From: Flavobacterium sp.
GTDB taxonomy: Bacteria > Bacteroidota > Bacteroidia > Flavobacteriales > Flavobacteriaceae
DNA length: 64,000 nt
Reading direction: 5' to 3'
Assembly: GCA_024644655.1 (NCBI GenBank)
Contig: JAHEHJ010000002.1
Coordinates: 21,833 to 85,832, forward strand
In this document: one piece after another, positions 55,312-59,712 of the stretch
Layout: each line of letters opens with the position of its first letter
How positions within the stretch are numbered: the first letter of the stretch is position 1
Position numbers and translations under genes: made by a program
The notes under the pieces: model-generated
Databases searched by the model: none
The model's input: the letters and a program-made list of their open reading frames with translations, nothing else
What the model was told of the DNA's origin: nothing

Positions 55312-56061
55312 ATGTTGAGCATAAAAAATTTACACGCTTCTGTAGAAGACAAAGACATATTAAAAGGGATTAATCTTGAGGTTAAGGCCGGAGAGGTTCA
55401 TGCTATTATGGGACCTAACGGTGCCGGAAAAAGCACCCTTTCTTCCATCATTGCAGGAAACGAGAATTATACAGTTACCCAAGGAGAAATCCTGTTGGAA
55501 GGAGAGGATATTTCGGAAATGGCTCCTGAAGAGCGTGCTCATAAAGGAGTTTTCTTGTCATTTCAATATCCGGTAGAAATTCCAGGAGTATCGGTGACCA
55601 ACTTTATCAAAACGGCAATCAATGAAAAGCGTAAGGCTAATAAGCAAGACGAAATGCCTGCGAATGAAATGTTGAAATTGATTCGCGAAAAATCGGAATT
55701 ATTAGAAATGGACCGTAAATTTTTATCTCGTTCGTTAAACGAAGGTTTTTCGGGTGGAGAAAAGAAAAGAAACGAGATATTCCAAATGGCCATGTTGGAG
55801 CCAAAAATTGCGATTCTAGACGAAACCGATTCAGGATTGGATATTGATGCACTTCGCATTGTGGCTAATGGAGTAAACAAATTGAAAAACGAAAACAACG
55901 CGGTACTCGTGATTACGCACTACCAACGTTTGTTAGATTATATTATTCCGGATTTCGTTCACGTATTGATGGATGGAAAAATTGTAAAATCGGGAGGAAA
56001 AGAGTTGGCCTACGAGTTAGAAGAAAAAGGATACGATTGGATTAAAAATGAATTGGTCTAG
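55312..56061 (+). CDS. sufC: Fe-S cluster assembly ATPase SufC
   Basis: '[18 protein letters not shown]', '[37 protein letters not shown]'. Confidence 0.98.
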
Positions 56062-56493
56062 AGTCTAAAGTCAAAAGTCTAAAGTCAAAAGATGGGAACA
56101 TTTAAATCATTTGAAGAAATTAGTTCTTGGAAAAAAGCAAGAGAGTTTACAAAGCAAATTTATCAAATTACTGAAAACTCCAATTTTAAAAAAGACTTTG
56201 ATTTTGTTAGACAAATTAGACGGGCTTCATTGTCAATTTCATCAAATATTGCTGAAGGTTTTGAAAGAAATACAGATAAAGAATTCATATATTTTCTTTA
56301 TGTGGCAAAAGCATCGGCAGGAGAAGTTCGCTCACAAATATATCTAGCATTTGATTTAGATTATATTACAAAACAAGAATTTGAAAAGCTCTTAGAAGCT
56401 ATTACAGAAGTATCAAAACTTTTAAGTGGTTTTATAAAATATTTAAGTCCAAAAGAATAAAGTCCTTTGACTTTTGACTTTCGACTTTAAGAC
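56062..56493 (+). mobile_element. candidate small IR-bounded module carrying a four-helix-bundle ORF, inserted between sufC and sufD
   Basis: left AGTCTAAAGTCAAAAGTCTAAAGTCAAAAG (56062-56091); right AGTCCTTTGACTTTTGACTTTCGACTTTAAGAC (56461-56493), near reverse complements. Confidence 0.5.
56092..56460 (+). CDS. four helix bundle protein (23S rRNA intervening sequence / S23-IVP family)
   Basis: 'FEEISSWKKAREFTKQIYQIT...FDFVRQIRRASLSISSNIAEGFERNTDKEFIYFLYVAKASAGEVRSQIYLAFDLDYI'. Confidence 0.92.
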   Translation: MGTFKSFEEISSWKKAREFTKQIYQITENSNFKKDFDFVRQIRRASLSISSNIAEGFERNTDKEFIYFLYVAKASAGEVRSQIYLAFDLDYITKQEFEKLLEAITEVSKLLSGFIKYLSPKE

Positions 56494-56500
56494 AAAAAAT

Positions 56501-57817
56501 ATGGAATTAAAAGAAAAACTGATCTCTTCCTTCATGGCATTTGAAGCGCAAATAGATGTGAACGCTAGTTTGCATGATGTGCGTACTTCGGCTATTAAGA
56601 ATTTTGAAACAAAAGGTTTCCCTACTAAAAAAGAGGAAGCTTGGAAATACACTTCGCTGAACGCTATTTTAAAAAATGACTATTCTGTTTTCCCTAAACA
56701 TGAAAATGCAATTGAATTTGCTGAGGTAAAAAAATACTTTTTGCATGAAATCGATACGCATAAAGTGATTTTTGTAGATGGGAAGTTTTCGTCTTTTTTA
56801 TCGGCTACAACACATGATGGAATAGATGTGTGTTTGATGTCATCGGCATTGACTAAGCCCAAATATAAGATGATTATTGACGAATACTTCAATAAAATTG
56901 CCAGTAAGGATGAGAGCTTAACGACTTTAAATACCGCATTTGCCAATGAGGGAGCTTATATTAATATTCCAAAAAGCAAAGTGGTTGAAAAACCTATAGA
57001 AGTCATCTATTTTTCAACTGGGAAAGAAGACGCTTTAATGGTTCAGCCTCGAAATTTGGTTATTGTTGGTGAAAATGCCCATGTACAAATTATAGAACGT
57101 CATCAAAGTCTGAATGAAAACCCAGTATTGACCAATGCGGTAACCGAGATCTTTGCTCAAAAGCGCGCGATAGTCGATTATTATAAAATTCAAAATGATT
57201 TGTTGTCGGCGAACTTGATTGACAATACCTATATCTCCCAAAAACAAGAAAGTAGGGTTTCGGTGCATACTTTTTCTTTTGGGGGCAACATTACTCGTAA
57301 CAATTTGAATTTCTATCATTTTGGCGAACGTATCGATTCAACCTTAAAAGGGATTACCATCATTGGTGACAAGCAACACGTGGATCATTACACTTTGGTT
57401 CATCATGCGACACCCAACTGTGAGAGTCATCAAAATTATAAAACGATATTAGCGGATAGTTCTACAGGGGTCTTCAACGGAAAAATATATGTGGAGAGAG
57501 AAGCCCAAAAAACGGATGCGTTCCAACAAAACAACAATATTCTTATAGGCGATAAAGCCACAATTAACGCTAAACCCCAATTGGAAATCTTTGCAGATGA
57601 TGTGAAATGTTCGCATGGATGTACCATAGGACAGTTGGATGAAAGCGCTATGTTTTATATGCAACAACGTGGTATTCCTAAGAAAGAAGCCAAGGCTTTG
57701 TTGATGTATGCTTTTTCTAATGAAGTAATAGAAAGTATTAAGATTCCTGAATTGAAGCAGCGCATAACTAAGATTATTGCGAATAAGCTTGGGGTTAATT
57801 TGGGTTTTGATTTGTAA
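56501..57817 (+). CDS. sufD: Fe-S cluster assembly protein SufD
   Basis: 'FPTKKEEAWKYTSLNAIL', 'DDVKCSHGCTIGQLDESAMFYMQQRGIPKKEAKALLMYAF'; ATG at 56501 preferred. Confidence 0.97.
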   Translation: MELKEKLISSFMAFEAQIDVNASLHDVRTSAIKNFETKGFPTKKEEAWKYTSLNAILKNDYSVFPKHENAIEFAEVKKYFLHEIDTHKVIFVDGKFSSFLSATTHDGIDVCLMSSALTKPKYKMIIDEYFNKIASKDESLTTLNTAFANEGAYINIPKSKVVEKPIEVIYFSTGKEDALMVQPRNLVIVGENAHVQIIERHQSLNENPVLTNAVTEIFAQKRAIVDYYKIQNDLLSANLIDNTYISQKQESRVSVHTFSFGGNITRNNLNFYHFGERIDSTLKGITIIGDKQHVDHYTLVHHATPNCESHQNYKTILADSSTGVFNGKIYVEREAQKTDAFQQNNNILIGDKATINAKPQLEIFADDVKCSHGCTIGQLDESAMFYMQQRGIPKKEAKALLMYAFSNEVIESIKIPELKQRITKIIANKLGVNLGFDL

Positions 57818-57831
57818 GCCTATTTATTGAT

Positions 57832-58365
57832 TTGAAAAAGTTATATATAGTTATTACTTTATTATTGGGTGTCTGTAAAGGGCACGCTCAGTTTTTCAAA
57901 GACAACTTTTATTATGAAGGAGAACTAGGAGGTGTAGCTTCTTTGTTTTTAACCGATTCAAAAGGAGAAGCCCATGTATTTACTTATGGCGGTTTGAATT
58001 TTCGAGGTGGATTGGGTATTCATGATGAAGACGGAAACTTATTTTTAGGTTTGCATTCTGGAATTGATGGGAATTTTAGACATCATACGGGAATACTCCC
58101 CGTTTATTTAAATAGTAGAATAGCCCTTGACATAACCGAAAAAGGGAAACTTGTATTTGCTTTTGGCTATGGAAAAAGCTTTCAAATAGGTCCAGAAAAA
58201 TTAAACGGTTATTTACGCAAATACACCATAGGATATGCTACTGTAACGTCAAAAGAAAACCTAGAAACATTCTATATCGAATTTAATAATTATGGTTTTG
58301 CCTTTCCTGACAATGGAATGCCAGCTATTACACTCAATTTAGGATATACGTATACTTTTTTATAA
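57832..58365 (+). CDS. hypothetical outer-membrane-like protein, TTG start
   Basis: 177 aa ORF, signal peptide 'MKKLYIVITLLLGVCKGHAQ', beta-rich; initiates at TTG. Confidence 0.7.
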   Translation: MKKLYIVITLLLGVCKGHAQFFKDNFYYEGELGGVASLFLTDSKGEAHVFTYGGLNFRGGLGIHDEDGNLFLGLHSGIDGNFRHHTGILPVYLNSRIALDITEKGKLVFAFGYGKSFQIGPEKLNGYLRKYTIGYATVTSKENLETFYIEFNNYGFAFPDNGMPAITLNLGYTYTFL

Positions 58366-59712
58366 GCGGCCCTTCAAACTACTCACAATCCCTTTCAAAA
58401 ACCCATTAAAATCAAAGTTGGGTTCTTCAATTAATCCCATTCTCACTATTACTAAATCACGGCTAGGAATGATGGCCACCATTTGCCCTTGGAAGCCACT
58501 ACAGTAGTACATATCTCTTGGCACATCGGGAAAATATCCACCAGCGTTGAGCCAAAACTGCGCACCGTATCTGCCGTTGGAGGTATTGGTTGGTGTGGCT
58601 ACATAGGTTGTCCAACTAGGATCAAAGAGTTGTTCGCCATTCCATTTTCCTTTGTTGAGGTATAATTGTCCAAATTTGGCCCAATCTCTGGGTGTCGCCC
58701 AACCATAGGAAGAGCCTACATAGTTACCCGCCATATCCGTTTCTACAAGCGCTGAATTCATCCCAATTTTATCCAATAACTCGGCATACCAAAAATTCAA
58801 ATAGTCTTGATGAGATTTAAACTGTTTACGAAGTATACCGGATAATAAATTTGTAGTTCCTGAGGAGTAATTCCAATGGGTGTTTGGTTTGAAAAGAGCT
58901 TGTTTTTCTAATTGGCTTTGACTCATGTTTTCGGCTTGAAACAGCATCTTTGTTACGTCGGATATTTTGCCATAATCTTCTTCCCATTCTAAGCCTGAAT
59001 TCATATGAAGTAAATCATTGATCGTGATTTTAGAACGCTCGTCCTTTTTCCATTCCTCTATGGGTGCCGGATTCATCACATTGATTTTGCCTTGTTTTTG
59101 TAGGATTCCAAAACAAGTAGCTGTAATACTCTTTGTCATAGACCAGCCTAATATTTTAGAAGAACTAGTAAACCCTGGAGCATATTTTTCGGCAATTAAT
59201 TTCCCTTTGTACAAGACTACTACTGAACGTGTTCGTTTCTTTTTTTCTCCATTTGTGTCAAAAGCAGCTGAAATCGCTTTTTCTAAGCTGGCATAATCGA
59301 TGTTGGAAAACAAAGTATCTTTTGGTTCTAGGTCTCCATAGGGATATTCTCGACCATTTTTTAGGGGATACCGTTGAGGAACCTCATACGGTTTGGTTAC
59401 ATCAAAATCCTCATTGATTAAAGTGACTCCTAATCCTTCACGATAGATGGCTTTTCGTTCTTTCAATCCATGTACACTAGAAGTCACAAATTTAGAGGCG
59501 TCATTTATGGAATTGGTAGCCCAATCTACTTTTGGAATATCATTATCCCCTTGCTGAATTGTTTCTAAATTTCGATTATCTATAAAGTGTCCTGAGGCCA
59601 CGCTTTTTGCCGAAAACCCCGAAATTAAATCCAATTGGGGATAAATTGAAAATCGAAAATAAACCAAAACAATAAGTAGAAAAAAGGCTAGAAACTTCAG
59701 AAATTTTTTCAT
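58360..59712 (-). CDS. serine hydrolase (beta-lactamase/class C family)
   Basis: 'GWSMTKSITATCFGIL' (SxxK), 'NYSSGTTNLLSGIL' (YSS). Confidence 0.93.
   Translation of the reverse strand: MKKFLKFLAFFLLIVLVYFRFSIYPQLDLISGFSAKSVASGHFIDNRNLETIQQGDNDIPKVDWATNSINDASKFVTSSVHGLKERKAIYREGLGVTLINEDFDVTKPYEVPQRYPLKNGREYPYGDLEPKDTLFSNIDYASLEKAISAAFDTNGEKKKRTRSVVVLYKGKLIAEKYAPGFTSSSKILGWSMTKSITATCFGILQKQGKINVMNPAPIEEWKKDERSKITINDLLHMNSGLEWEEDYGKISDVTKMLFQAENMSQSQLEKQALFKPNTHWNYSSGTTNLLSGILRKQFKSHQDYLNFWYAELLDKIGMNSALVETDMAGNYVGSSYGWATPRDWAKFGQLYLNKGKWNGEQLFDPSWTTYVATPTNTSNGRYGAQFWLNAGGYFPDVPRDMYYCSGFQGQMVAIIPSRDLVIVRMGLIEEPNFDFNGFLKGIVSSLKGRL

Follow-up and report, generated by a model that had tools for sequence, protein, structure and literature searches.

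Between sufC and sufD, the 64,000-nucleotide stretch of Flavobacterium sp. DNA analysed here (the window) carries a cassette that consists of one S23/IVP gene enclosed by inverted tandem-heptad arms. The cassette acts as a unit, which is present, absent, ORF-less or replaced at one junction in close relatives. Filled and empty alleles of one site were found in close relatives both at the Flavobacterium sufC-sufD junction and in Nostoc plasmids. We read the cassette as a site-faithful operon element with occasional hops and as the mRNA counterpart of the S23-carrying intervening sequences (IVS) of rRNA. Taken as a whole, the view that the module is an IVS-type operon cassette with homing-like turnover is in our judgement fairly probable. 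To our knowledge, structures of S23/IVP proteins have been available since 2006, yet these proteins remain without a function and are classed as rRNA oddities. The literature searched, a limited collection, yielded no description of S23 cassettes in mRNA operons or of their heptad arms.

Anatomy of the sufC-sufD cassette

The upstream host gene sufC (55312 to 56061, forward strand; from the ORF list and tblastn to relatives) ends with the stop codon TAG at 56059-56061, which forms the left border of the cassette. The left arm, AGTCTAAAGTCAAAAGTCTAAAGTCAAAAG, of 30 bp (56062 to 56091, forward strand), is built of tandem AAAGTC+N heptads and is defined by the sequence, by an inverted-tandem scan and by pairing with the right arm; its first base lies directly 3' of the sufC stop and its last base abuts the S23 start codon. 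The ORF of 122 codons (56092 to 56460, forward strand) lies in sense with the suf operon, and its 122-aa product was assigned to the S23/IVP four-helix bundles by the PF05635 and TIGR02436 profiles and by an AlphaFold model. The right arm of 33 bp (56461 to 56493, forward strand) consists of GACTTT heptads, its reverse complement being GTCTTAAAGTCGAAAGTCAAAAGTCAAAGGACT, and is supported by the sequence, the scan and the predicted RNA stem. Its 3' end is 7 bp upstream of the sufD start codon (ATG at 56501), the right border. The downstream host gene sufD itself (56501 to 57817, forward strand; ORF list) is present in 145 of 150 genomes of the genus.

The original prediction of an S23 ORF within inverted AAAGTC-heptad arms between sufC and sufD is confirmed by the sequence and the scan. 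The AAAGTC unit also stands, with a correction in its spacing, as it is followed by a single base or, at times, by two (period 7 or 8); likewise, the arms are as close to the ORF as described, and the right arm in fact starts directly at the S23 stop codon. As had been stated, the cassette holds no transposase, S23 being its single ORF in the ORF list and the profile search.

Inverted tandem heptad or octad arms occur at one place in the 64-kb window (56066-56489), which is the sufC-sufD cassette. The same scan gave 9 matches in 400 kb of one relative versus 0 in block-shuffled sequence. Chance inverted repeats as the source of the arms were ruled out by this comparison together with those against mispaired flanks and control gaps given below. 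When folded as RNA with a shortened loop, the arms are predicted to close into a 28-pair stem (-29.3 kcal/mol, z = -6.25); for the fold of all 461 nt, z is -3.6, and both arms make up its closing stem. The pairing of the arms proposed for the suf mRNA is thus borne out in the predicted fold. No Rfam family was matched between 53400 and 58400 of the window. Further downstream, two ORFs (57832-59712), one small and the other beta-lactamase-like and on the reverse strand, part sufD from sufS (59937), so that the suf gene cluster is split in the window.

The S23 protein

The product of the ORF matches PF05635 with 126.4 bits (cut-off 33.8, E = 6.5e-37) and TIGR02436 with 127.3 bits (cut-off 24, E = 2.7e-37), and its AlphaFold model has four helices at a pLDDT of 95.6. 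Both profiles and the model agree with the assignment to the S23-type four-helix bundles made earlier. The conserved SNIAEG core is present, and 11 positions are invariant across 47 S23 sequences (W13, Q41, S48, N52, I53, E55, G56, R59, F68, S75 and E78). Among the sufC-sufD copies, S23 changes amount to 0.19, 0.11 and 0.43 at the first, second and third codon positions. As judged from these sequences, S23 is an old, functional protein under purifying selection.

The solved folds nearest the model are 2gsc and 2rld of the S23 family, followed by Avd (4dwl); the TM-scores against Avd 4dwl and the ribonucleoprotein of a diversity-generating retroelement (DGR, 8ub7) are 0.74-0.75. A match to the Avd profile PF22296 (E = 1.2e-5) is under its cut-off, and no Avd profile scored over its cut-off (bAvd, 26.2 bits versus 40; NF033474, 28.6 versus 80). 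Homology between PF05635 and Avd has already been noted (PMC10053308).

States of the sufC-sufD junction in Flavobacterium

Fixation of ORF and arms at sufC-sufD, named in advance as a finding that would speak against a cassette, was not observed: among 108 Flavobacterium genomes, the junction is empty in 28, holds arms only in 53 and carries S23 with arms in 27. The filled junctions are of two kinds, 17 with S23 type 1 and AAAGTC arms, as in the window, and 10 with S23 type 2 and GTTTCAAG arms. The empty junctions are compact (TAATG, TAAAATG). The arms-only hairpins are 49-107 bp long, with units such as AGTTTAA, AGTTTAC, AGTTGTC, AGTTTAT and AAAGTC. At least 38 state changes are required on the sufC+sufD tree, with 19 for filled/empty and 18 for ORF/none. 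Gain, loss and exchange all take place exactly between the stop and the start codon, in agreement with the suggestion that the cassette moves without disrupting the operon.

One tight clade of 13 genomes contains type 1, type 2 and arms-only alleles, all at this junction. Within the clade, the differences in sufC and sufD are equal within and between types right to the border; in the last 60 bp of sufC they are 0.103 within types versus 0.108 between types. The flanks do not travel with the cassette type. Within each type, S23 divergence matches flank divergence (r = 0.88 and 0.93), which suggests that most copies are vertically inherited or exchanged inside one gene pool. Short-tract homologous exchange could be the source of part of the sufC-sufD pattern. 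The conserved 5' end of sufD was considered as a target sequence and ruled out, because synonymous constraint is equal at the sufC start and in empty junctions. Two near-empty junctions (L213, TAAAGTCAACAAAAATG; L218, TAAAGTCAAGAAAAATG) retain one AAAGTC unit, which is perhaps an excision footprint.

S23 cassettes in other operons and lineages

The window's genome has six S23 ORFs. Further copies with AAAGTC-type inverted repeats had been named as something to look for in this genome. All five others do have tandem-repeat flanks, and their units, named by eye, differ from AAAGTC (GTGAATC, ATCGGCC, CAGTTTT, AGAAAAT and TTAGGNN); the repeats of the ATCGGCC-flanked copy are direct, not inverted. 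Heptads are direct instead of inverted in some copies, for example at L003 in this genome. One fixed arm sequence per family was ruled out by the different units of these five copies.

PF05635 matches were found in 146 of 201 Flavobacteriaceae genomes, with up to 19 per genome. Both S23 flanks have their highest autocorrelation at 7 in a one-per-genus sample (0.42-0.43 versus about 0.30), and arm complementarity is 11.4 versus 7.7 for mispaired flanks, with 47% of the loci beating 95% of the mispaired controls; overall, just 47-60% of copies reach this level. Low-identity partners were used in this control, because loci with the same unit inflate it. Significant heptads or octads were detected in 23 of 34 left flanks, 18 of 34 right flanks and 20 of 111 control gaps. 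In the Flavobacteriaceae sample, which takes the best-scoring S23 of each genome with no random draw within genomes, 32 of 34 S23 ORFs are co-directional with both neighbours; as a baseline, co-direction holds for 235 of the 299 pairs of adjacent ORFs in one relative, a share that random orientation would halve. The repeat unit has a period of 7 or 8 and varies from copy to copy, and the left and right flanks are complementary; in one hairpin group, pairing involves just about four of seven bases per unit. The same architecture is found at named loci of Acidobacteriota, Nitrospirota, Ignavibacteria and a Clostridia-labelled MAG, and on cyanobacterial plasmids.

The best 80 named relatives of the window S23 lie mostly in suf operons, at sufA-B, B-C, C-D and S-E and after sufE, and several suf operons carry two S23s. 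The S23 tree groups by operon and junction (18 label changes versus 67.8 when shuffled), and the suf S23s, whose clades occur across Flavobacteriaceae and Chitinophagaceae, form a set apart from those of the fadJ-fadA, metH, hemE and rluA junctions, names that were assigned from protein sequences without a search. One S23 subclade sits at what reads as nuoF-nuoG and appears to be one escape from the suf operon. In the paa-type operon of genome G133, four cassettes with differing units occupy four junctions, and genome G114 carries two in a fadJ-fadA-acyl-CoA dehydrogenase stretch. S23 clades are faithful to their host operon yet change junction inside it. We have seen no recently duplicated S23 copies within a genome; the best pair, both in the paa-type operon of G133, is 61% identical. 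Recent transposition to new sites, as first envisaged, is unsupported, since the copies within a genome are old.

The original prediction had also held that heptad repeats lacking the ORF would weaken the idea of a cassette. This applies in part, as arms-only hairpins do exist (they are counted in the 9 matches of the scan in one relative), but their positions are of the same sort, and they resemble cassettes that lack the ORF.

Insertions in Nostoc plasmids

One operon is common to 12 Nostoc plasmids. Its first junction is filled with S23 in five plasmids, empty in six and occupied by an unrelated insert in one; the filled alleles have AGTCAGG arms, and the empty ones have three bases between TAG and ATG. 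The second junction is filled in a single plasmid, by another S23 (38% identical) between AAAAGGG arms; here GAGGTAATGGGATTTG, the empty allele, has become GAGGTAATG-cassette-ATGGGATTTG. Possible duplications, ATG (3 bp) at the second junction and TTCT(A) at the first, overlap the arms and are ambiguous. The cassettes of pNsp_a and pC052_D are 99.0% identical, whereas the surrounding genes are 92.5, 91.7 and 91.2% identical, and the differences restart within at most about 40 bp outside each cassette border.

In pNPM1, an S23 ORF is interrupted by a 182-bp repeat with AGTCAG heptad arms (L266 541-1143; L271-L276). This repeat has fixed ends (TTGAAGAAG...TTTGATAA), is followed by GATAA in all seven copies read, and has a core that is present in 26 Nostocales plasmid records. 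Its derivation from an S23 cassette was considered and set aside, the likeness being one of shared arms.

Comparison with known elements

In Coxiella, the 23S rRNA IVS is 428 nt long; RNase III cuts its 28-bp terminal stem, whose loop carries an S23 ORF, and three tandem heptamers (GACAGAT) precede this ORF (PMC4990558). The operon cassette shares with the rRNA IVS of Leptospira and Coxiella burnetii a stem of terminal inverted repeats whose loop holds the S23 ORF in sense, a length of about 430 nt, a scattered distribution and ORF-less forms, and with that of Coxiella the tandem heptamers directly before the S23 ORF, which in the window are the AAAGTC+N heptads of the left arm. It differs in that it lies in protein-coding mRNA, between a stop and a start codon, and has many operons as hosts, in that heptads make up both arms, and in that the operon S23 is under purifying selection whereas the Coxiella S23 is decaying. 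Since it is not in a 23S rRNA helix, a defining feature of an IVS, we do not class it among the rRNA IVS. The operon cassette nevertheless resembles an rRNA IVS and probably works in a similar way.

Other elements share single features with the cassette. Among the rRNA insertions of CPR bacteria, some hold 23S_rRNA_IVP ORFs and others at these sites have no ORF (PMC11270868); like these and homing elements, the cassette recurs at the same site, has empty alleles and comes with and without an ORF. Unlike them, it has no known splicing or endonuclease and is tolerated through its position and perhaps also through its hairpin. Direct heptamer repeats are known in Beggiatoaceae, cyanobacteria and Bacteroidota, with no link to S23 (PMC4679880). 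Such STRR or TAACTGA repeats are similarly intergenic, made of seven-base tandem units and found in Cyanobacteria and Bacteroidota; they are direct and lack an S23 ORF, whereas the cassette arms are complementary and the unit varies by copy. MITEs and REP/BIME elements also provide short ORF-less hairpins at many intergenic places, but the cassette has no fixed end sequence and no transposase was found in it, and it is placed between stop and start codons in operons. With the Avd protein of DGRs, S23 shares the four-helix-bundle fold (4dwl, 8ub7) and a weak profile match; it differs in scoring under the Avd and bAvd cut-offs and in that no adjacent reverse transcriptase (RT) was found.

Movement of the cassette

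The main rival to our reading is short-tract allelic exchange, in which old polymorphic junction alleles pass between species only through the usual homologous recombination of the flanking genes, and neither S23 nor the arms contribute to movement. It would yield recurrence at the same site, and both the agreement of S23 and flank divergence within each type and the coalescence of both S23 types near the depth of the clade fit it. It is somewhat unlikely, in our estimate, to be the whole explanation: the type is not tracked by the flanks even in the nearest 60 bp, the Nostoc identity of 99.0% stops within about 40 bp on each side, and exchange through the flanks leaves unexplained both the S23s of one clade at different junctions and three unrelated cassettes at one site. 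S23 might instead have been domesticated as an accessory gene of Suf, with a hairpin that regulates the stoichiometry of sufC and sufD, as the purifying selection and the suf-linked clades of Flavobacteriaceae and Chitinophagaceae would allow. This is very unlikely, because the sufC-sufD S23 is missing in 75% of the genus, its position within the operon varies and like cassettes occur in fad, paa, metH, hemE, rluA and nuo junctions and in Nostoc plasmids; these many other host operons rule out a Suf-specific gene and speak against the domestication for Suf that had been raised at the outset.

Two further explanations bring in a partner enzyme. As a retro-element, the cassette RNA would be freed from the mRNA by its arms, the Avd-like S23 would recruit an RT, and the cDNA would insert at a different stop-start junction, with a preference for the transcript of origin. 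The Avd likeness in profile (under cut-off) and fold is consistent with this, as are the sense orientation of nearly all sampled S23 ORFs, the spread of one clade's S23s over several junctions in a single operon, and RVT_1 matches in 7 of 12 S23-rich versus 2 of 13 S23-free genomes in a Pfam search. But selection can also produce co-direction, the RT excess may merely mirror the overall load of mobile elements, and RVT_1 is absent from five of the 12 S23-rich genomes, including G133, so that we consider a retro-element improbable. No RT is adjacent to the window cassette; the sole RVT_1 match of this draft assembly is on contig C105 and the window on C88. It seems similarly improbable that the arms are MITE- or REP-like substrates of an unrelated trans-acting transposase (e.g., HUH Y1/RAYT) with S23 as a passenger. 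The occurrence of arms-only hairpins would agree with this, as would the 182-bp heptad-armed repeat inside the pNPM1 S23 ORF, with its core on further Nostocales plasmids, and Y1_Tnp matches in 9 of 12 S23-rich versus 3 of 13 S23-free genomes. The Pfam search, however, found no Y1_Tnp in G114, G133 and G170, each with 11-13 S23 matches, the arms vary among copies, unlike transposase ends, and several phyla have conserved S23 in precisely this context. G133, with 12 S23 copies and neither RVT_1 nor Y1 transposase, indicates that neither an RT nor an HUH partner is obligatory. We have dropped an obligatory partner of either kind, and for the trans-acting help considered originally, no specific helper is supported. 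The cassette was also unmatched in a phage collection.

We return to an IVS-type cassette with homing-like turnover. Its S23 gene would lie in the loop of a tandem-heptad hairpin, inserted between the stop and start codons of a polycistronic transcript. In the mRNA, the arms may form a hairpin that seals the cassette off or sets it free, which would keep the host genes expressed and make the insertion tolerable, a step to which we give about an even chance; release could be RNase III-like, as for rRNA intervening sequences. S23, as an Avd-like bundle, would recognise the heptad arms as RNA or DNA in the service of the cassette, and would promote homing-like transfer to a matching empty junction, rarely to a neighbouring one, using host or borrowed enzymes. 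That S23 takes a direct part in movement is a tentative proposal, with chances somewhat below even, and an RNA-level route of movement is rather unlikely. Arms-only hairpins would be ORF-less derivatives of the cassette, and slippage with arm-templated repair may let the unit drift while the arms remain complementary. In its widest and quite speculative form, which probably claims too much, S23/IVP genes would carry widespread transposase-free cassettes homing to operon stop-start junctions, where a heptad-armed RNA hairpin and an Avd-like protein move as a ribonucleoprotein that borrows host enzymes, the self-homogenising arms are the recognition signal, and rRNA IVS are the minority that landed in rRNA.

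If S23 genes are indeed the genes of operon-junction cassettes, their role becomes testable with natural pairs of filled and empty alleles. The cassette points to a route for the entry of extra DNA into operons between their coding sequences and may account for many hairpins with heptamer repeats among Bacteroidota and cyanobacteria; it also provides an Avd relative with no adjacent RT for comparison with DGRs.

Further hairpins and S23 copies

Arms-only hairpins with AAAGTC units are also found at the clpP-clpX junction in genome G010 and in the window's genome (L239 2988-3053, L013 1501-1560), and clpP-clpX reads as a second conserved hairpin site. On contig C35 of genome G000, tandem AAAGTC heptads lie within a lipoyl-domain E2-like coding sequence (L010 669-702); an arms-only hairpin (about 940-1008) stands beside this E2-like gene, and an S23 copy (L006) is also there. 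A Riemerella anatipestifer record labelled as a plasmid (L260) has lepA as well as a sufA-like gene followed by S23, and these genes suggest that the record may be a chromosomal piece. The S23 on a contig filed as a Rhizobium MAG (L122) groups with the Flavobacterium nuoF-nuoG copies and probably reflects contamination. On plasmid pPg_01 of Pseudanabaena galeata, long AAAAGCT arrays accompany an S23 gene situated between cas6 and cas4 (L257 1285-1966).
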